Source: Halomonas sp. A40-4
GTDB taxonomy: Bacteria; Pseudomonadota; Gammaproteobacteria; Pseudomonadales; Halomonadaceae
Assembly: GCF_015767635.1 (NCBI RefSeq)
Contig: NZ_CP065230.1
Location: 3,100,001 to 3,164,000 of the forward strand
DNA: 64,000 nt
Reading direction: 5' to 3'
The position numbers and the translations under genes were made by a program. Below are positions 29,699 through 41,119 of this stretch, piece by piece (positions within the stretch are counted from its first letter, which is position 1; every line of letters starts with the position of its first letter). The notes below the pieces were generated by a model. That model was not told the origin of the DNA and searched no databases. It saw only the letters and a program-made list of their open reading frames with translations.

Positions 29699-31837
29699 TC
29701 ACCGGCCCTCAGTAACGGCCGGTGAGCGAAACCGGTAGCCCAACAGGCGCATCGCATTAAGCGTGACCAACACGGTAGCGCCGGTGTCAGCCATTACTGC
29801 CACCCACATGCCGGTGATGCCCAGTACGGTCGACACCAGAAACAACGCCTTGAAGCCCAGCGCCAGCGCCACGTTGGTCTTGACGTTGTTCAGTGTCGCC
29901 CGGGACAGCGCGATGAGTTCGGCAACCCCCATCACACGGTTCTTCAGCAAGGCCGCATCGGCGGTTTCCAACGCCACATCGGTTCCACCGCCCATGGCGA
30001 TCCCCACGTCGGCGGCCGCAAGCGCCGGGGCATCGTTAATACCGTCACCCACTTTACCCACGGTCCCCAGTCCCTGGGCCTGCCAGTCCCGCACCCGCTG
30101 GGCCTTGTCCTCGGGCATCAGCTCGCCTTCGGCCTCAATACCCAACTGCTTACCCATGGCGGCCACCGTGCGCGCGTTATCGCCGCTGAGCATCACCACG
30201 CTGACGCCCAGGCGTTTGAGCGCCTCAATCGCGGCTGGCGTATCCTCACGGGGTTCGTCGCGCAGTGCCAACACGCCAAGTGCCTTGCTTTCAGCCAGCA
30301 ACAGGACCACCGTTTTACCCTCTGCTTCCAGCGCGGCAATTCGCGCTGACTGTGTCTCGGTCCCCTGCCAATGGCGCGGGCTTGTGAGGGTTAACTGCCG
30401 GCCCTCGAACCGACCGCTGACACCCTGCCCGGCCTGAGCCTGCCCCTCGGATGCCCTGCCAAGCCACAGCCCCAACTGCTCTGCATGCTGCACAATGGCC
30501 TGGGCAACCGGGTGGCTTGAGTCCTGCTCCAGCGCGGCGGCCAACCTGACCACCTCGTCCTCGCTCGACTCGGTCCATGCTTCAACATCGGTCACGCTGG
30601 GCGCACCAGCGGTCAGGGTCCCGGTTTTATCCACCGCCACGCGCTGGAGCTTGCCCAGCTGTTCAAGCACGGCACCGCCCTTGATCAAAAGACCACGCCG
30701 CGCGGCGGTTGAAAGCCCCGCGGCAATGGCCGCCGGCGTCGAGATGACCAGCGCACACGGACAGGCAATCAACAGAAGTGCCAACGCCCGATAGATCGAC
30801 TCGGACCAGGCAAGCCCGGTCAGCCAGGGCGGCACCACCGCGACAAGCACGGCCACACCGACGACCAATGGCATGTACCAGCGGGCAAACCGGTCGATAA
30901 AGCGCGCCACTGGCGCTTTGGCGGCCTGTGCTTCTTCGACCAGGTGAATAATCCGGGCAATGGTATTGTCAGCAGCCCCCCGAGTGACTTCCACCTCTAA
31001 CGCCGCGTTGAGATTGACCGTGCCCGCCCAGATATCCTCGCCGGTGGCACGCTGCCGGGGCACCGACTCGCCGTTGATAGGCGACTCATCGAGCTGGGAG
31101 GTTCCTGCGACAATACGCCCATCGCAAGGCACGCGGTCCCCCGGGCGCACCAATACCCGCTGGCCGGGCGTCAACGTATCAGCTGCTACATCGCGGATGG
31201 CTTCCCCTTCAAGTAGACGCGCCGTCGCCGGCGTCAGATTGCCTAGCGCCGCGATGCGCCGCCGCGCCTGCCCGGCCGCCACCCCTTCGAGCAGCTCACC
31301 CACCGCGAACAAGAACACCACCATGGCCGCTTCAGCGGCGGCCCCGATGGTTAAAGCCCCCAGGGCCGCGATACTCATCAGCATTTCAATGGTCAGAGGA
31401 TTGCCCATGCGCAGTGAGCGCCAGGCGGCTTGCCCGATTGGCACCCATCCGATCAGCGTGGCCAAGATGAATGGCCAGGCACCCACTTCGGGCAGACGCC
31501 AGGCCAACAGCCACGCCATTACCAGCAGTGCGCCACTGATCAGTACCAGCCGTCCTTTTGCCGTTCCCCACCAGCGCGGCGTCGATGCCGTGGATGGTGA
31601 GGCGTCAATCACCGGATAGCCAAGCTTGGACAGGGTGTGTGTCAGGGCGTCATGGTCCAGCGCCTGATCGGCATAAGCGGTCACGCTTACCGTACCGCTC
31701 ATGCTTGAGGCGCTGACTTTTTCAACCTGCGACAACCCTTCTAGCGCTGCCTCTACCTTGCGTTCACAGCCGCCACAGTCCATGCCCTGGACGTTCAGAC
31801 GCGCGGTGTCGCGGGTGTCTTGCTGGCGAGTGGTCAT
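29699..31837 (-). CDS. zntA: Zn/Cd/Pb-exporting P-type ATPase
   Basis: A 712-residue P1B-type ATPase. Order: N-terminal HMA domain (about 12-75, GMDCGGCERKVE metal site), transmembrane helices, actuator loop (about 250-270, INGESVP), the metal-transporting ACPCALV motif (about 365), phosphorylation site DKTGTLT (about 410) and hinge GDGINDAPALA (about 615). CPC plus the CxxC HMA domain and the C-terminal NAMRLL segment fit the Zn2+/Cd2+/Pb2+ exporters. It is divergent from a MerR regulator, with a MerR-type operator in its promoter. Confidence 0.92.
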   Translation of the reverse strand: MTTRQQDTRDTARLNVQGMDCGGCERKVEAALEGLSQVEKVSASSMSGTVSVTAYADQALDHDALTHTLSKLGYPVIDASPSTASTPRWWGTAKGRLVLISGALLVMAWLLAWRLPEVGAWPFILATLIGWVPIGQAAWRSLRMGNPLTIEMLMSIAALGALTIGAAAEAAMVVFLFAVGELLEGVAAGQARRRIAALGNLTPATARLLEGEAIRDVAADTLTPGQRVLVRPGDRVPCDGRIVAGTSQLDESPINGESVPRQRATGEDIWAGTVNLNAALEVEVTRGAADNTIARIIHLVEEAQAAKAPVARFIDRFARWYMPLVVGVAVLVAVVPPWLTGLAWSESIYRALALLLIACPCALVISTPAAIAAGLSTAARRGLLIKGGAVLEQLGKLQRVAVDKTGTLTAGAPSVTDVEAWTESSEDEVVRLAAALEQDSSHPVAQAIVQHAEQLGLWLGRASEGQAQAGQGVSGRFEGRQLTLTSPRHWQGTETQSARIAALEAEGKTVVLLLAESKALGVLALRDEPREDTPAAIEALKRLGVSVVMLSGDNARTVAAMGKQLGIEAEGELMPEDKAQRVRDWQAQGLGTVGKVGDGINDAPALAAADVGIAMGGGTDVALETADAALLKNRVMGVAELIALSRATLNNVKTNVALALGFKALFLVSTVLGITGMWVAVMADTGATVLVTLNAMRLLGYRFRSPAVTEGR

Positions 31838-31871
31838 GGCATCATCCTTCCCGTTCGGCTATCGTGGGAAT

Positions 31872-31903
31872 AGCGTAATACCTGTAGTCACTAGAGGTTT
31901 AAG
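31872..31903 (-). promoter_or_regulatory. MerR-type promoter/operator for zntA
   Basis: ACCTGTAG (31880-31887) and CTAGAGGT (31891-31898) form an inverted repeat with one mismatch and a 3-nt centre. On the minus strand it lies between a -35-like TTAAAC and a -10-like TACGCT separated by 19 bp, the overlong spacing that MerR proteins correct by twisting DNA. The regulator gene starts 8 nt to the right. Confidence 0.75.
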
Positions 31904-31905
31904 CC

Positions 31906-32370
31906 ATGACCAACACGTCCAGCCATGCCGCTATCGGCATTGGCGAACTCGCCAGCCGGACCCACTGCAAGCCGGAGACCGTGCGCTATTACGAGAAGAT
32001 CGGCCTGCTACCCGCCGCCCCGCGTAATGATGGCAACCAGCGGCGCTACAGCGAGGCTACGGTGCAGCGGTTGATGTTTATTCGACACGCGCGGGATTTT
32101 GGTTTTTCGGTGGAGGCCGTGCGGGAGTTACTCGATATGGCCGATCACCCGAGCCAGCCGTGCGAGCAGGTCGATAGCCTGGCAAGGCGGCACCTGGCGG
32201 AGGTGGAATCGCGCATTCAGCGGCTGATGGTTCTGCGCGACGAACTGAAGCGGACGGTCGCCCAGTGCGACGGCGACAGCGTGGCTCAGTGCCGGATTAT
32301 CGAGGTGTTGAGCGACCACCGGCTGTGCAGCCACGATGCCGCCCATGGCGGCGCGGAGGCGCTACGCTAA
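31906..32370 (+). CDS. cadR: MerR family metal-responsive regulator (CadR/PbrR/ZntR type)
   Basis: A 154-residue MerR regulator. The winged helix-turn-helix covers about residues 10-75 (IGELASRTHCKPETVRYYEK), followed by the dimer helix and a metal loop. Cysteines at about 86, 121, 129 and 141 plus C-terminal histidines match the divalent-metal branch (Cd/Pb/Zn) and not the Cu(I) or Hg branches. Divergent from the ATPase gene with a shared operator, so it probably activates that gene. The final stretch (HDAAHGGAEALR) has histidines as in CadR. Confidence 0.88.
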   Translation: MTNTSSHAAIGIGELASRTHCKPETVRYYEKIGLLPAAPRNDGNQRRYSEATVQRLMFIRHARDFGFSVEAVRELLDMADHPSQPCEQVDSLARRHLAEVESRIQRLMVLRDELKRTVAQCDGDSVAQCRIIEVLSDHRLCSHDAAHGGAEALR

Positions 32371-32382
32371 TACGGCGGCGCG

Positions 32383-33162
32383 TCATGCCCCCAGCCACAC
32401 GTCGAGGAACAGCATGATCACCAGGCCGATGGCCAGACCAAAGGTCGCCTTCTTCTGGTGACCGCAGCGATGGGTCTCGGGAATGATTTCATGGCTGATC
32501 ACGTAGAGCATGGCCCCGGCGGCAAAAGCCATGCCCCAGGGCAGTAATATCTGCGAGACGCTGATAATGCTGGCGCCGAACAGGCCGCCGATAGGCTCGA
32601 TCAGTCCAGTGAGCGCAGCAATCGTCCACGAGCGAACCCGTGAATACCCCTCACCCATGAGCGCAATCGCCACGGCCAGCCCTTCCGGTATGTTTTGCAG
32701 GCCAATGCCGATCGCCAGCGGCATGCCGCCCTCCAGGCCGTTGGCGCCGAATCCAACGCCTACCGCCATGCCCTCGGGCAGGTTATGAATGGCAATGGCA
32801 AACACGAACAGCCAGACCCGCCGCAGCGAGGCAGCTTCGGGGCCTTCGCGGCCCTGCTGGAAATGCTCGTGGGGCAGGCGCTCATTGAGCAGCGCAATCG
32901 CGCCCATGCCCAGCAGAATCGCCGCGCAGACGATGGCGGCAGGCACAGGGCCACCCGCATAGTAGATTTCGGCGGCGTCCAGCGCCGGGATGATCAGTGA
33001 AAAGAATGACGCCGCCAGCATGACGCCAGCGGCAAACCCCAGTGCCAGGTCACGAAAGCCGCGGTCAGGCGTTTTGCCCAGCAATACCGGTAGTGCGCCG
33101 ACGGCTGTCAACGACCCGGCCACAAGGCTACCCAAGAAACCTAGTAAAAACGTATTTTCCAT
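32383..33162 (-). CDS. ZIP family divalent metal transporter
   Basis: A 259-residue membrane protein with about eight helices. IHNLPEGMAVGVGFG (about 130-144) and LQNIPEGLAVAIAL (about 160) are the two metal-binding helices of ZIP transporters. The variable loop after helix III has HEHF. It resembles the GufA/ZupT group that imports Zn2+ and other metals. It lies convergent to the MerR gene, 12 bp away, and forms a metal cluster with the exporter. Confidence 0.87.
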   Translation of the reverse strand: MENTFLLGFLGSLVAGSLTAVGALPVLLGKTPDRGFRDLALGFAAGVMLAASFFSLIIPALDAAEIYYAGGPVPAAIVCAAILLGMGAIALLNERLPHEHFQQGREGPEAASLRRVWLFVFAIAIHNLPEGMAVGVGFGANGLEGGMPLAIGIGLQNIPEGLAVAIALMGEGYSRVRSWTIAALTGLIEPIGGLFGASIISVSQILLPWGMAFAAGAMLYVISHEIIPETHRCGHQKKATFGLAIGLVIMLFLDVWLGA

Positions 33163-35249: not shown

Positions 35250-37541
35250 ATGAGCGCGCACGCTACTCCCCCGCCACGCTTTTGGCTGAGCGGCAAACGC
35301 CATGCCGAGCAGGATGTTTTTTTTCGCCAGACGCTGGAAGCCAAGGGCTGGCAGCAAGGCGACGACGCGCAGTGGCAGGCAGCCTGGGTTACCGGCATGC
35401 CGCCCAGGGCGGCATTCAAGGCGACGTCTCCCAGCCGCGTGATGAACCACATTCCCGGCAACGCCGCGCTCACGGTCAAAAGCCGCCTGCATGCGGGGTT
35501 GAGAGGGCTGCGCGAACGCACCCGGCGCCACTTTGGGGAGGCGCATCCCAACACGGAACGGCTGAATTTCTTCCCGCGCGCCTATGAAATGCCCCACGAC
35601 TACCCGGCGCTGGTCGAGGACGCCGCCGCGCATCCCGACAAGCGCTGGATCTTGAAGCCGACCAATGCGTCCAAGGGCCAAGGGGTTCAGGTGTTGCGCG
35701 ATCCGACCAGCGCACCGCTGGAACCCAACTGGCTGGTGCAGGAGTATATTGCCAACCCGCACACCATCCGTGGCCACAAGTACGTGCTGCGCCTTTATAT
35801 GCTGATTGCCAGCATTGACCCGCTACGCGTGTATCTCTACGACCAGGGCTTTGCCAAGCTGGCCTCGGCGCCGTGGAGCCCGGATGACATCGACAATCCC
35901 TTTAGCCAGCTGACCAACCCCGACATCAACGCGCTCAACCTGGACGCCGAGATTCCGGTGGAGTTTATCGACCTTGACCGCTATCGCCACTGGCTTCGCG
36001 AGCAGGGCCACGACGACCAGGCGCTGTTTAGCCAGCTGCAGGATCTGGCCACGCTGACCGCGCTGTCCGGCGTCGAGGCGATGCGCGCCCGCTCCCGGGA
36101 AGACGGCGCCGACCCGCGGGGCTGCTACGAGCTGATCGGCCTGGACTGCCTGGTCGACGACCAGCTAAAGCCATGGATTCTGGAGTGCAACCTGAGCCCC
36201 TCACTGGGCACCTGCGCCAAGCCCGAACATGGCGGCGTGGTCGAAGAGGCCGTCAAAACCGGGCTGGTGGAGGACATGATTGCCCTGACCGGGCTTGCTC
36301 AGCCACCCCGGGAGACGGCCACCTTCGATGCCGCGGCGCTGGCGGCCGAGCGCGAACGGGCGGGTGGCTTCGTGCCGCTCTACCCGACCCGGGACGCCCA
36401 TCGCCACCTGCCCTTTGTCGGGCTACCCAGCCTTGCCGATTACCGGCTGGCGACCGAACTCGCCCCGCTGAGCCTGTCTTTCCACGGCCAGGACGTCAGC
36501 GAGCTTATCGATGACGATCGTCTGGCGCTTTACCACCACCCCAGCGGTCGCTACTTTCAGCTCAACGACAGCGCGGCGCTTATCTGGCTGCTGGTCAGCG
36601 AAGGCGCGCCGATCGAGAGCGTGCTAGAGCAGCTCCAGGCGGCTAGCGGCGGGCAGGTCGATGCCGACACCCTGGCCAGCGACCTCTGGGCGACGCTCTC
36701 GCTATGGTGGCAACATGGGCTGCTGGCGCCCGGGGATCGCGACACTTCAGTGCCCGACACGGCGTCACCCGCTCGCGAGCATCCCGCCACCTGGCGCGGT
36801 ACGTTGTTTTTTGATCAGCGCTGCTGGTCGATCAGCGCGCCACAAGGCCCCGTGGCAACACGCATTGCCGAGACACTGGCGCCGCTGCTGGACGCCGACG
36901 GCAACGCCCCTGACACGTCGCTGCATATACTGGAAAGCGCCAACGGTTACTGCCTGACCAGCGACAGCCGCGTGATTCGCTCCCGCCTGCACCTCGACGA
37001 CATCGTCCCTGCCCTCACCCAGCACTGCTTGTCCCACGCTACCGGTGACGGGCAGTTGGTGCTCGACGTCGTCCTGCTGAGTCGGCCGGAGGGGCATGTC
37101 GTCTGCGTGGTGCCCGACCAGGAGCCTGCCCAGGCGATGGGCACGCTGAAGGCTGTGGCGGAACGGAACGCCCTTGCCCTGACGCGCGGGGCACGCCTCT
37201 CACTGGCCACACCGGATACCCTGGAACCGCTTAATGTACCGCTTGGGGATGCCGGATTCCTGTTTCAGGAACGCGGCCCTTGCGTTGGGCTGTTATGGCT
37301 TGATGCCGACCCGAGCGACAGCCCGGAGGCGCCGTCATCGCTCGAGTTACTCGGCGCTTTGCTCCCCGCGACCCTGGAAACCGCAGAACACCCACAAGGC
37401 TTAAGCCCTGACGCCTTGACCGCGCTGCAGCACATGACTCAGGGCGCGCATTGTGCGCGGCTGGCCAGCACGCAGGTCGAGGCCGTCGGCCAGTGGCTTG
37501 ACCGGACACCGCTTTCACCCTCTTCCCACGCCGCGGTATAG
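35250..37541 (+). CDS. TTL-like ATP-grasp ligase fused to a PqqD-like domain and a C-terminal domain
   Basis: A 763-residue fusion with no signal peptide. Residues 1-350 form a tubulin-tyrosine-ligase-like ATP-grasp domain: NHIPGNAALT (66-75), FPRAYEMP (108-115), WILKPTNASKGQGVQVL (133-149), VLRLYMLIASIDPLRVYLY (179-197), LTNPDIN (221-227) and LKPWILECNLSPSL (306-319) align well with eukaryotic TTLL ligase motifs, including metal- and ATP-binding residues. Residues about 425-495 resemble PqqD (YFQLNDSAALIWLL), a leader-peptide-binding domain. Residues about 515-763 resemble the layout of HPr-kinase-related proteins but have no P-loop GKS; that match is tentative. It precedes a Glu/Gly-rich small peptide gene by 57 bp. 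It probably ligates an amino acid or forms an amide on a peptide; the substrate is inferred. Confidence 0.8.
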   Translation: MSAHATPPPRFWLSGKRHAEQDVFFRQTLEAKGWQQGDDAQWQAAWVTGMPPRAAFKATSPSRVMNHIPGNAALTVKSRLHAGLRGLRERTRRHFGEAHPNTERLNFFPRAYEMPHDYPALVEDAAAHPDKRWILKPTNASKGQGVQVLRDPTSAPLEPNWLVQEYIANPHTIRGHKYVLRLYMLIASIDPLRVYLYDQGFAKLASAPWSPDDIDNPFSQLTNPDINALNLDAEIPVEFIDLDRYRHWLREQGHDDQALFSQLQDLATLTALSGVEAMRARSREDGADPRGCYELIGLDCLVDDQLKPWILECNLSPSLGTCAKPEHGGVVEEAVKTGLVEDMIALTGLAQPPRETATFDAAALAAERERAGGFVPLYPTRDAHRHLPFVGLPSLADYRLATELAPLSLSFHGQDVSELIDDDRLALYHHPSGRYFQLNDSAALIWLLVSEGAPIESVLEQLQAASGGQVDADTLASDLWATLSLWWQHGLLAPGDRDTSVPDTASPAREHPATWRGTLFFDQRCWSISAPQGPVATRIAETLAPLLDADGNAPDTSLHILESANGYCLTSDSRVIRSRLHLDDIVPALTQHCLSHATGDGQLVLDVVLLSRPEGHVVCVVPDQEPAQAMGTLKAVAERNALALTRGARLSLATPDTLEPLNVPLGDAGFLFQERGPCVGLLWLDADPSDSPEAPSSLELLGALLPATLETAEHPQGLSPDALTALQHMTQGAHCARLASTQVEAVGQWLDRTPLSPSSHAAV

Positions 37542-37598
37542 CGGCAGGAAGTCGCGCCATCTGGCGCATTTGCTTGTCACACCAAAAGGAGAAGCCTC

Positions 37599-37844
37599 AT
37601 GTCTCAACACGAAGCTAAACGTCGTTTACTGAGCCGCCTTAGCCGTCGGTTCGGCTATACCGCCCCCGCCCTTGCGCTGGTCGCAGGTGGTCTGGCCTTT
37701 CAGGCCCAGGCCGACGAGCCCACCGACGGATTCACCTCGATGCAGGAAGCGCCCATGATGCTGGCAGAAGGTGGCGCTGAGGGCGAAGGCGAGGAAGAAA
37801 TGGAAGGTGAAGGAGAAGGCGAAGGCGGTGCCGAAGCCGGCTAA
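37599..37844 (+). CDS. Small exported Glu/Gly-rich peptide, candidate precursor 1
   Basis: An 81-residue peptide of no family I can name. Residues 1-20 are strongly basic (KRRLLSRLSRR), 21-39 are hydrophobic (PALALVAGGLAFQAQA) and end in an AxA signal-peptidase site before DEPTDG, and residues 58-81 are almost only Glu and Gly with few Ala and Met. It has AAAAGGAG upstream. It shares the LALVAGG core, an MM doublet and an AEGGAE repeat start with the 106-residue peptide at 40549, so the two are paralogues. Position right after the TTL-PqqD gene suggests it is its substrate. No cysteine is present. Confidence 0.75.
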   Translation: MSQHEAKRRLLSRLSRRFGYTAPALALVAGGLAFQAQADEPTDGFTSMQEAPMMLAEGGAEGEGEEEMEGEGEGEGGAEAG

Positions 37845-37921: not shown

Positions 37922-38470
37922 ATGTCGACATCACCACTGTCGCCACTGATTGACGAAAATGTGCAAACCCTCGCGCAGCTCGCCCAACTGCTGGGCCGCG
38001 TTTCGGCACACGATTACCAGCGCTCGCTCGGCGCCAAGGGGACTCAGTCGCTGGGCAAGCACGTTCGCCATATCCTTGAGCACTACCAAACCCTGCTGGA
38101 TGCCTGCGCGACGACATCTACCCAGGCGATCTTTGACTATGAAAATCGCCCGCGGGAAGCGGCGCTGGAAACCCAGCCTGGCTATGCGAGTGACCGGACT
38201 GAAGCGCTTCAGGCGGGGCTCAAGGCATTAGCGACCATGCAACACGATGCCGCCCTAACGCTGAGCTATCCGGTTGAGGGTGACGTTGACGATTCGGTAG
38301 CACTGCCCACCAGCCTGGGCCGGGAGCTGGCATTTTTAACCAGCCACAGCATTCACCATATGGCGCTGCTGGGCCTGCTCTGCGAACAGCTGGGCATCGC
38401 GCTACCCGAGCACTTCGGCGTTCATCCATCGACGCTACGTTACTGGGAGCTACAGCATTCAGGCTCTTGA
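37922..38470 (+). CDS. DinB family protein
   Basis: A 182-residue helical protein of the DinB/YfiT-like fold. Histidines in GKHVRHILEHY (about 40-50) and TSHSIHHMALL (about 140-150) give the metal-binding triad of the family. Members include thiol-dependent transferases; the function here is unknown. ATG 37922 has GGGAGG 9 nt upstream; codons before it lack similarity. It follows the Glu/Gly-rich peptide on the same strand and may be in its transcript beyond the hairpin. Confidence 0.72.
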   Translation: MSTSPLSPLIDENVQTLAQLAQLLGRVSAHDYQRSLGAKGTQSLGKHVRHILEHYQTLLDACATTSTQAIFDYENRPREAALETQPGYASDRTEALQAGLKALATMQHDAALTLSYPVEGDVDDSVALPTSLGRELAFLTSHSIHHMALLGLLCEQLGIALPEHFGVHPSTLRYWELQHSGS

Positions 38471-39285: not shown

Positions 39286-39350
39286 GGGATCAGAGGCGAG
39301 TATGAGCATGAACACTTTTCTGCTATCAGATCTTGTCGGTGAGGACTAAC

Positions 39351-39917
39351 GTGACAACCGCCATGCGCTCACCCGATGAACATATTGCGGCGCTGCGACC
39401 CAAGCTCGTCGCCTTCGCTCGCTTACAGCTTCGCGATAACGCCGCAGCTGAGGATACCGTGCAGGACACGCTGGTCACCGCACTGGAAAAGCACGATACC
39501 TTTGCCGGGCGTTCCGCGTTCGAGACCTGGGTCTTCGGCATCCTCAAAAACAAGATTCTCGAAAGATTCCGCCAGCAAGACCGCTATGTCGCGTGGCAAA
39601 ATGATGATCAGAGTGAGGACGATGCACTGGAAAGCCTCTTTCAGGACAACGGACGCTGGCGGGCAGCGAATCGTCCAACGCCATGGGGCGACCCAGATCA
39701 GATACTAGAAAACACGGCATTTTGGAAAGTACTGGATGCCTGCCTCATAGCACTGCCGGAAAACACGGCTCGCGTTTTCACGATGCGTGAACTCATGGAG
39801 CTTTCAACGCAGGAAATATGCCAGATACTGGACATAACAGAGACCAATTGCTGGGTCATATTGCATCGAGCTAGGCTAAAGTTACGCCACTGTGTTGAAA
39901 AAGGCTGGTTAGCCTAA
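39351..39917 (+). CDS. ECF-type RNA polymerase sigma factor
   Basis: A 188-residue sigma-70 family factor with only regions 2 and 4. Region 2 covers about 10-85 (DNAAAEDTVQDTLVTALEK, then WVFGILKNKILERFR). Region 4 covers about 125-180 (ELSTQEICQILDITETNCWVILHRARLKL). The insert with PTPWGDPDQILEN between regions is typical of the ECF group paired with short zinc-finger anti-sigma factors. GTG 39351 with GAGG upstream is preferred; TTG 39333 and ATG 39381-side codons are alternatives. Its probable anti-sigma factor is encoded three genes downstream. Confidence 0.88.
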   Translation: MTTAMRSPDEHIAALRPKLVAFARLQLRDNAAAEDTVQDTLVTALEKHDTFAGRSAFETWVFGILKNKILERFRQQDRYVAWQNDDQSEDDALESLFQDNGRWRAANRPTPWGDPDQILENTAFWKVLDACLIALPENTARVFTMRELMELSTQEICQILDITETNCWVILHRARLKLRHCVEKGWLA

Positions 39918-40074: not shown

Positions 40075-40506
40075 ATGCAAAACGATACGACCACACGCTC
40101 CCTAGAGGCATCTTTAATAGAACGCCATGCGCACTGGTTGTTGCGCCTGGGCTTGGCCAGTGTCTTTATTTTCATGGGAATCGACAAATTCATGGGCTCA
40201 GGGATTGCCGCATTTTCGGCCACGATGAGCCTACCGCTAATTCTTGGCGTTCTTGTTGCCCTAGGTGAGATTGGCACCGGTTTGCTTGTCGTCCTGGGTG
40301 GGTTGATGAAGAGTCGCTTGGGCGACCTCATAACTCGCCTAGGTGCGCTGGGTATGGTGCCCATCCTGCTCGGTGCCATCTTCATGGTGCACTGGGGGCA
40401 GTGGCACTTTATGTCCACCGCTTCGCACCCGCTGGGAGGCATGATGTTTCAGGTGACGCTCGCTATGATGGCAATCTATCTGCTAGCCAAAGGCAATAAT
40501 GCTTAA
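40075..40506 (+). CDS. DoxX-like small membrane protein
   Basis: A 143-residue protein with four hydrophobic helices. LLRLGLASVFIFMGIDKFMG (about 22-41) is the DoxX/DoxD-type first helix. Related DoxX proteins accompany ECF sigma factors and small secreted peptides in several proteobacteria. GAGGAGG lies upstream of the ATG. It precedes the 106-residue peptide gene by 42 bp on the same strand. The 157-bp gap in front of it (39918-40074) may hold an ECF promoter; I could not define one. Confidence 0.75.
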   Translation: MQNDTTTRSLEASLIERHAHWLLRLGLASVFIFMGIDKFMGSGIAAFSATMSLPLILGVLVALGEIGTGLLVVLGGLMKSRLGDLITRLGALGMVPILLGAIFMVHWGQWHFMSTASHPLGGMMFQVTLAMMAIYLLAKGNNA

Positions 40507-40548: not shown

Positions 40549-40869
40549 ATGTCAGACAATAAACGACAAACGTTACTGGATAGCCTGACCAAAGGGTTCG
40601 CCTATGCGGTCCCCGTTCTGGCCCTGGTCGCCGGTGGGTCGGCAGTGCATGCCGTCTACTCCGACGTTACCACTGAATCCGGTTATTACATGATGGCCGC
40701 AGCAGAAGGTGGAGCCGAAGCTGAGGGTGGTGCTGAGGGTGAAGCCGAAGCTGAAGGTGGCGCCGAAGCCGAAGGTGCCGCTGAGGGTGAAGCTGAAGGT
40801 GGCGCCGAAGCCGAAGGTGCCGCTGAGGGTGAAGCTGAAGGTGGCGCCGAAGCCGAAGCCGCCTCATAA
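40549..40869 (+). CDS. Small exported Glu/Gly/Ala-repeat peptide, candidate precursor 2
   Basis: A 106-residue peptide, paralogue of the one at 37599. Basic N terminus (SDNKRQTLLDSLTKG), hydrophobic PVLALVAGGSAVHA with a signal-peptidase-like AxA-type end near residue 36, a short linker with YYMM, then about 55 residues made only of Ala, Glu and Gly in imperfect AEGGAE/AEGE units, ending AAS. The tail is encoded by a 42-bp tandem repeat. No cysteine, histidine or lysine lies in the tail. It sits between the DoxX-like and anti-sigma genes with AAGGAGG upstream. Confidence 0.75.
   Translation: MSDNKRQTLLDSLTKGFAYAVPVLALVAGGSAVHAVYSDVTTESGYYMMAAAEGGAEAEGGAEGEAEAEGGAEAEGAAEGEAEGGAEAEGAAEGEAEGGAEAEAAS
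40756..40858 (+). repeat. 42-bp tandem repeat inside peptide gene 2
   Basis: Two perfect 42-bp copies start at 40756 and 40798, and a third partial copy of about 19 bp starts at 40840. The unit is in frame and encodes 14 residues of the Glu/Gly/Ala tail. Confidence 0.92.
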
Positions 40870-40918: not shown

Positions 40919-41119
40919 ATGCTGATGTGCCGTGAAGCGACACGCTTGATGTCGCTTAAGCAGGACAAGGCGCTCACCTTACGGGAACGAGCGGCGCTGC
41001 GTTTTCACCTTTCCATGTGTGGGGCCTGCCGTGCTTGCGCCCGTCAGTTTGATCTGCTGCACGCCATTGGTGAACACCACCCTGCCGCATTGAAAACGAC
41101 ATCGACATCCGATGACTAG
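40919..41119 (+). CDS. Short zinc-finger anti-sigma factor (zf-HC2 type)
   Basis: A 66-residue cytosolic protein. C4 plus HLSMCGACRAC (H30, C34, C37) gives the H-x3-C-x2-C zinc anti-sigma motif with the usual spacing to the first cysteine. There is no membrane helix, so the signal is probably sensed in the cytosol, for example thiol oxidation that releases zinc. It is the likely partner of the ECF factor at 39351. AAGGAG precedes the ATG; it ends 10 nt before the DUF3047 start. Confidence 0.82.
   Translation: MLMCREATRLMSLKQDKALTLRERAALRFHLSMCGACRACARQFDLLHAIGEHHPAALKTTSTSDD

Follow-up and report, generated by a model that had tools for sequence, protein, structure and literature searches.

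A ligase of the tubulin-tyrosine-ligase-like (TTLL) type in a bacterium raises the question of what it modifies; TTLL-type branch glutamylation is known from eukaryotes, where tubulin and a small number of Glu-rich proteins receive it. The question is posed here by a 64-kb stretch of the Halomonas sp. A40-4 genome (the window), in which the gene of a 763-residue enzyme, a TTL/PqqD fusion, is followed after a gap of 57 bp by that of an 81-residue acidic exported peptide. Both open reading frames have been confirmed as an initial annotation, made from the letters of the window, had given them, and the ribosome-binding sites of both are good as judged by eye. The genome comprises 4.15 Mb in one contig, with Vreelandella/Halomonas as the closest named relatives and Halomonas sp. 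CUBES01 as the nearest tree neighbour. The answer developed below, which we regard as probable, is a leader-guided protein-tagging system: a PqqD-like RRE (recognition element of ribosomally synthesized and post-translationally modified peptides, RiPPs) would hold the leader of a precursor, the TTLL ligase would tag its Glu tract, and Sec export would follow. An enzyme-substrate relation between the fusion and a family of acidic exported proteins is strongly supported by sequence comparison. The elements concerned are the following:

35250..37541, + strand: TTLL-type ligase / PqqD (RRE) / probable pseudo-HprK fusion enzyme, 763 aa (open reading frame, Pfam, predicted structure)
35271..36419, + strand: TTLL-type ATP-grasp ligase domain, residues ~8-390 (structure match and PDB profile search)
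36480..36731, + strand: PqqD-like RRE domain, residues ~411-494 (PF05402 above cut-off; TbiB1 structure match)
36780..37511, + strand: HprK/PEPCK-fold domain without P-loop, residues ~511-754 (hhalign, PEPCK match, weak Foldseek matches)
37599..37844, + strand: acidic exported peptide 1, 81 aa, candidate substrate with leader/signal and Glu/Gly/Ala tail
37656..37667, + strand: YTAP, a YxxP motif, within the peptide 1 leader
40549..40869, + strand: acidic exported peptide 2, 106 aa, YAVP in the leader, second candidate substrate

Architecture of the fusion enzyme

The fusion of a TTL-like ligase to a PqqD-like domain, as first read from the sequence, is borne out by two Pfam domains that lie above their curated cut-offs in one protein, TTL (PF03133, residues 62-330, E 3.1e-50, 171.5 bits against a cut-off of 20.1) and PqqD (PF05402, residues 427-492, E 2e-7, 31.7 bits against 23.4), while no NCBIfam model scored above cut-off for the enzyme, peptide 1 or peptide 2. 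It is the sole TTL match in the window genome. A profile search of the PDB, with a query profile built from 13 homologues, has placed glutamylases first (TTLL6 2.7e-53, TTLL7 6.6e-44, TTLL11 8.7e-27), followed by entry 5vlq ('LOC100158544 protein', 3.4e-13), which we take to be the TTLL3 glycylase, and then by TTL at ~1e-8. Glutamylases also come first, ahead of TTL, for an AlphaFold2 model of the whole enzyme (24-row alignment, pLDDT, the predicted local distance difference test, 83.9; pTM, the predicted template modelling score, 0.75), compared with known structures by VIA, of which the best 50 matches were listed: TTLL6 is the best structural match (Z 43.3, 363 residues aligned, 2.3 Å, 25% identity), with TTLL11 at Z 37, TTLL7 at Z 34 and TTL at Z 32. 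Tubulin-tyrosine ligase proper has been rejected as an identity for the ligase, TTL standing far behind TTLL6, TTLL7 and TTLL11 in both the sequence and the structure rankings.

The PqqD part resembles discrete RREs of lasso-peptide systems. It matched the lasso RRE TbiB1 at 3.5e-6 in the PDB profile search, and in a second model that covers residues 400-763 (pLDDT 82.6, pTM 0.66) it superimposes on TbiB1 bound to the lasso leader with Z 14.3 over 82 residues at 1.2 Å. The secondary structure assigned by DSSP consists of strands 416-421, 424-429 and 434-438 and helices 440-449, 455-465 and 472-488, with an extra short strand (451-454) between the first two helices.

Overlooked at first, a third domain follows the RRE. 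Residues 413-763 align to a pair of PqqD-HprK proteins at 98.8% (hhalign); the model part beyond the RRE matches phosphoenolpyruvate carboxykinase (PEPCK) at Z ~10.6, with PEPCK rows and no HprK rows among the best 50 VIA matches, and both HprK and PEPCK occur among weak Foldseek matches, HprK at E 0.008 and worse, so that the tie to HprK draws mainly on the hhalign comparison. From these profile, model and hhalign matches, the domain order is read as TTLL ligase, RRE and P-loop-less HprK. An active kinase at this end could, on the pattern of paeninodin and LPP clusters, phosphorylate the precursor, with the TTL part acting on another target; remote homology to the PqqD-HprK proteins speaks for it, and an HprK-like kinase together with an RRE acts on a leader-bearing precursor elsewhere (PMC13381572; this and the other papers cited by PMC number are drawn on in excerpt). 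The P-loop pattern (GxxGxGKS/T) was not found in the enzyme, however, which is gapped where the PqqD-HprK proteins carry GSGKST, and the HprK-like region is poorly conserved, six of the 8 invariant columns in the C-terminal alignment lying in the PqqD part and two beyond. We therefore hold an active kinase to be very improbable, and the HprK-like domain is probably a pseudokinase scaffold.

One locus of a gammaproteobacterium (L037, 1417-2517) carries a stand-alone TTL-family ligase of 367 aa, and the next protein has an RRKALK n-region and perhaps a signal; this is possibly a split relative.

A shared leader on acidic exported proteins

Peptide 1, as read by eye, begins with a basic n-region and a hydrophobic core, has a plausible cleavage site at AQA|DE and ends in a Glu/Gly-rich tail. 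That this is more than a chance arrangement is indicated by a blind scan of the window for a hydrophobic stretch with an acidic low-complexity tract after it, which returned two matches, peptide 1 and the gene of peptide 2 (40549-40869), the latter having escaped the initial annotation; the scan is imperfect, for the cytochrome type of L016 and L102-L106 was missed by it and one unrelated match was given in L098. The same two genes, starting at 37599 and 40549, are the leader genes of the window genome by profile, the next match having E 0.7. Across loci one leader is common to three carriers, namely free peptides, alphaproteobacterial lipoproteins with the lipobox LLLA[AG]C, and SoxA/TsdA-type cytochromes c, in which the acidic tract sits between the signal and the haem domain. 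Leader and acidic repeat tract are seen in four such cytochromes (L025 582-1331, L007 13135-13902, L012 12527-13210 and L016 7805-8806; three were run against Pfam), and among the acidic exported proteins and cytochrome fusions run against NCBIfam no model scored above cut-off.

The composition of these proteins has been counted for 72 distinct members (48 small proteins, 15 cytochromes, 9 lipoproteins), a set whose collecting pattern required the leader and which is thus not a census. In their mature parts, taken after residue 40 with haem domains left off (4214 residues in total), Glu makes up 1311 residues (31.1%), Ala 1073 (25.5%) and Gly 708 (16.8%), and Asp only 98 (2.3%); Ser amounts to 167 (4.0%), Thr to 114 (2.7%) and Lys to 103 (2.4%), with 5 Arg and 2 Cys. 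The Glu:Asp ratio of 13 was likewise found in a 61-protein count on tracts picked by their E/D/G/A content, a count that understates other residues. Because Glu outnumbers Asp 13:1, a side-chain requirement is suggested, and not charge alone. At three loci (L034-L036) the last two residues of the acidic peptide are -GY, which resembles the tyrosine end of alpha-tubulin and may be coincidence.

The leader itself has been compared in a set of 53 profile matches with an assigned locus (30 of the 47 family-sample matches, 8 from another search and 15 strong matches of profile A4, introduced below), which reduce to 52 distinct leaders. All 52 carry Pro in the hydrophobic core, preceded as YxxP in 36, as [VLIF]xxP in 12 and by another residue before xxP in 4. 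Lasso RREs recognise the leader motif [Y/W]xxPx[hydrophobic] (PMC13381572), and variation from YxxP to LxxP has been described (PMC12710340). Most leaders thus appear to carry a motif of the lasso-RRE type, or a close variant, inside an apparent Sec signal; a PDB search with the leader gave no match (one at E 6.2). PqqD-HprK proteins with an intact P-loop (L040 910-2413; L039 925-2115, with a small ORF upstream) stand beside small proteins with 'FLKKAGKFAVYTPPA' leaders, in which YTPP occupies the same leader place, and the fusion may have its parent leader-reading system in these loci.

The distribution of the enzyme largely matches that of the leader. It was matched in 25 of the 151 genomes of the Halomonas family, among them a 272-codon broken fragment in G021 and a gene with an in-frame stop in G039. 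At 1e-10, 7 of 369 genomes of a class sample match, four with the fusion (the window genome, G305, G416 and G511, the last over 470 of 770 positions) and three (G344, G355, G438) with a separate TTL, a PqqD-HprK protein or a short part; a phylum sample gave 3 of 398, of which the family sample had already included two. Among alphaproteobacteria, 14 of 299 genomes in the order of Robiginitomaculum hold the enzyme (15 loci), and a class-level sample gave 5 matches in 289 genomes, three to the fusion (G1413, G1310, which has one in-frame stop, and once more G889) and two to the PqqD part only. Leader profile A2 matched 25 of the 151 family genomes, 24 of them enzyme genomes, so that 24 of the 25 genomes that match the enzyme also have leader-bearing acidic proteins, against 1 of the 126 that do not match it (Fisher 1.3e-25), presence and absence agreeing in 149 of 151; the exceptions are G021, whose broken enzyme goes with no leader gene, and G119, which has a leader-bearing cytochrome and no enzyme match in its genome. 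Profile A4, at E<=1e-10, separates 14 of 14 enzyme genomes from 0 of 285 others (Fisher 2.6e-24; agreement 299/299), its strong matches being 15 genes in exactly these 14 genomes, with two enzymes and two leader genes in G1069. Weaker A4 matches, between 1e-5 and 1e-3, appear in nine further genomes; in eight of these the match spans ~20 of 40 positions, which we provisionally take for generic signal-sequence noise. Both Fisher values are too small, the genomes being related, and the sensitivity is partly circular, A2 and A4 having been built from genes near the enzyme and A4 from the tested loci themselves.

Proximity points the same way. Leader-bearing acidic proteins are present in 44 of 44 genomes with a fused-enzyme match (G039, G1310 and G511 included, the G021 fragment uncounted), and the nearest leader match lies 58-727 bp from the enzyme match in 43 of 43 measured loci (median 279) and about 80 bp from it in two others, G1310 and G1413. 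In sixteen further loci (L002-L017), some perhaps of the same species as sampled genomes, such a protein is in every case encoded no more than 0.2 kb from the enzyme. Of the 25 family genomes that profile A2 matched, 22 hold exactly two leader genes. The initial annotation would have been contradicted by homologues that never sit near such peptides, and the opposite has been found; its proposal of peptide 1 as the substrate stands as far as association with the enzyme goes, by proximity, co-occurrence, RRE and motif, and gives way on the notion of a single peptide, the candidates being a family of carriers.

Enzyme and acidic proteins might merely share a stress regulon, with no enzyme-substrate relation between them. 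Genes for an extracytoplasmic function (ECF) sigma factor, an anti-sigma factor, DoxX and rhodanese near the enzyme in many loci would fit this, as does the G119 cytochrome. A common leader on unrelated carriers, an RRE domain inside the enzyme and a co-occurrence that extends to the paired copies of G1069 argue otherwise, and so does L016, the sole wider alphaproteobacterial locus mapped, in which the leader protein is present and the DinB, DoxX and sigma neighbours were not found. We consider a shared regulon as sole explanation highly improbable.

Putative chemistry and its alternatives

That the ligase keeps the TTLL motifs, as had been claimed at the outset, holds for eleven TTLL-type active-site residues (K136, Q164, K177, R181, K203, T222, N223, N227, D299, E312 and N314), which are present and do not vary in any of the 24 rows aligned, that of the enzyme described here among them; K136, D299, E312, N314 and others are presumably ATP/Mg ligands. 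The TTLL6 sequences among the PDB matches differ in the aligned stretch at just three positions, which read C, Q and H in 6vzt and A, R and I in 6vzq, whose title carries 'engineered'; we assume that the first and last are residues 179 and 362 of TTLL6 and that they bear on selectivity. Position 179 is matched by Ser in 21 and Ala in 3 of the 24 rows, Q180 by K142 (K in 14, R in 10) and H362 by L315 (Leu in 24 of 24). Q180 has been identified as the primary determinant of elongase selectivity in TTLL6 (PMC12366701). Because K142 and L315 stand at the Q180 and H362 positions, the enzyme looks like an initiase, which initiates branches, and not like a chain elongase.

In the sequence of events that we propose, the PqqD/RRE domain would bind the substrate leader through [Y/V/L]xxP in the apparent Sec signal and keep the precursor cytoplasmic, as fold and motif suggest. 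The TTLL ATP-grasp domain, to judge from its fold and active-site residues, would then spend ATP on attaching an amino acid, most likely glutamate, to the gamma-carboxylates of Glu in the Glu/Ala/Gly tract. Release followed by Sec export would bring the product, a polyanionic peptide, lipoprotein or c-type cytochrome, into the periplasm. Glutamate is a best guess for the donor because TTLL6, TTLL7 and TTLL11 are the nearest relatives. For the same enzyme-substrate pair the donor could instead be an amine or an amino acid other than glutamate, such as glycine or tyrosine, or the site of attachment could be the C-terminal alpha-carboxylate: members of the TTL family use Tyr, Glu or Gly, the tails of L034-L036 end in GY, glycylases too start on glutamates of acidic tails (PMC12340829), and TTLL11 extends primary chains (PMC12366701). 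Glutamylases nevertheless come first by sequence and by structure, with 5vlq at 3.4e-13 behind them where glycine is concerned, although a whole-domain ranking leaves the donor unsettled; we consider a different donor or site unlikely, while giving it a larger share than any other alternative. A Peptidase_M14 carboxypeptidase, as a candidate eraser, was not found in the window genome, which neither helps nor hurts the glutamylation reading.

Quite improbable, in our estimation, is a graspetide-like cyclisation in which the ATP-grasp domain forms lactam or lactone bridges within the peptides. The plan of an ATP-grasp ligase with leader-bearing precursors is that of graspetides, and possible acceptors are present, 71 of 72 mature parts containing one or more residues of Lys, Ser, Thr or Cys. 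They are sparse, however, against 31.1% Glu, and Lys is 0 in the mature parts of the 9 lipoproteins; the nearest solved folds among the best 50 matches listed are TTLL/TTL. The system shares with graspetides an ATP-grasp ligase that would act on ribosomal precursors, and it differs in the TTLL type of that ligase and in Glu-rich targets with few Lys, Ser and Thr.

Several points weigh against glutamylation of a Glu tract as proposed here. We infer the chemistry from homology; the initiase/elongase rule, in particular, is carried over from eukaryotes at 25% identity. The first residue of the leader motif is H or A in 4 of 52 leaders and V or L in 12, Asp is higher (7.4%) in the alphaproteobacterial lipoproteins, and the other acceptors just mentioned exist in nearly all mature parts. 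To these are added the G119 cytochrome without an enzyme, the partial circularity of the profiles and the overstated Fisher statistics.

Related systems and gene neighbourhood

The eukaryotic TTLL polyglutamylases TTLL6, TTLL7 and TTLL11 are alike in ligase fold (Z 34-43), active-site residues and an acidic Glu/Gly low-complexity target; they use microtubule- or partner-binding regions, whereas the bacterial enzyme apparently uses an RRE that reads a signal-peptide leader, and its candidate targets are exported, with no tubulin. The nearest eukaryotic parallel is TTLL5, which has the initiase signature and acts on the Glu-Gly repeat of RPGR-ORF15 (PMC13052805). The discrete RREs of lasso and LPP systems (TbiB1, FusB1, LppB) share the PqqD/RRE fold and a leader motif like [Y/W]xxPx[hydrophobic]; here, in contrast, the RRE is fused to a TTLL ligase and the motif lies in the h-region of an apparent Sec signal, and no lasso cyclase was found among the ten window proteins run against Pfam and NCBIfam. 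PqqD-HprK proteins of the HPr-rel-A type (TIGR04352, below cut-off) are homologous to the C-terminal half of the fusion and keep the P-loop, which the fusion has lost, having gained a TTLL ligase in front. Bufferins, which are Sec-exported RiPPs modified by multinuclear non-haem iron-dependent oxidases (MNIO), likewise have a Sec signal in place of a classical leader and DoxX and sigma-factor neighbours, and it has been suggested that their signal stays masked until they are modified (PMC12452194). Their core bears cysteine and their modifying enzyme is an MNIO, whereas here it is a ligase. A bufferin reading has been rejected on the 2 Cys in 4214 mature residues, both in cytochrome-type proteins and none in the 48 small peptides and 9 lipoproteins; no MNIO (DUF692) was found among the ten window proteins run, the genome not having been searched for it.

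The initial annotation knew of no described system with this set, and none has come to light in the open-licence literature, which leaves out preprints, subscription papers and supplements: 'tubulin tyrosine ligase' was not found there together with 'PqqD', nor with 'RiPP' and 'bacterial', and the available main text of two RRE surveys and a graspetide survey mentions neither TTL nor tubulin. An amidoligase survey by Iyer and colleagues (2009) reportedly discusses bacterial TTLs, and parts of the system may be foreshadowed there. The parts, a TTLL ligase and RRE-guided modification, are known; their combination and its targets are not described in the literature searched. A broader proposal, which we hold to be evenly poised, would make this a bacterial counterpart of the tubulin code, in which an RRE-guided TTLL, usually one per genome, glutamylates Glu tracts on unrelated exported proteins by way of YxxP before export. 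If so, it would tag whole proteins and not belong to a natural-product pathway, the leader-tract module would be portable, and tagging of protein tails may exist in bacteria too. The acidic exported proteins, cytochrome fusions included, would gain a function, RRE-guided modification would gain an enzyme type, and a compact bacterial TTLL with a built-in substrate reader would offer a simple model for TTLL site choice and bear on the origin of the TTL family.

The remaining genes of the set, which the initial annotation had also passed over, are the following:

37922..38470, + strand: DinB-family protein, conserved neighbour (PF05163 above cut-off)
39333..39917, + strand: ECF sigma factor (TIGR02943)
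40075..40506, + strand: DoxX-family membrane protein (PF07681)
40919..41119, + strand: zf-HC2 anti-sigma-like protein (PF13490 and NF052368, both above cut-offs)

Neighbours have been compared in 30 gene maps (11-20 kb except for the window, several from close relatives), 27 of which hold a non-broken enzyme gene. DinB is present in 24 of these 27 and is kept beside the system in several gammaproteobacterial families. DoxX occurs in 10 of the 30 maps and a cytochrome in 10, never both together, and in other loci the DoxX gene lies between the enzyme and peptide genes. The presence of DoxX, rhodanese, the ECF sigma factor and the cytochromes of SoxA/TsdA type may indicate a link with envelope stress, be it from sulfur, redox or metals, and a role in cation or redox handling there is a guess. 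A mobile or phage origin of the locus has been rejected, plasmid, phage and viral collections, from which near relatives may be left out, having given no match.

Between the enzyme and peptide genes, at 37554-37567, lies a short inverted repeat (GCGCCA-TC-TGGCGC) without a T-run, which could give the two genes different expression. Upstream, at 29699-33162, a probable heavy-metal P-type ATPase, a MerR-type regulator and a ZIP-like transporter have been named by reading the sequence, and relatives are similarly placed in 7 to 9 of 17 compared loci.

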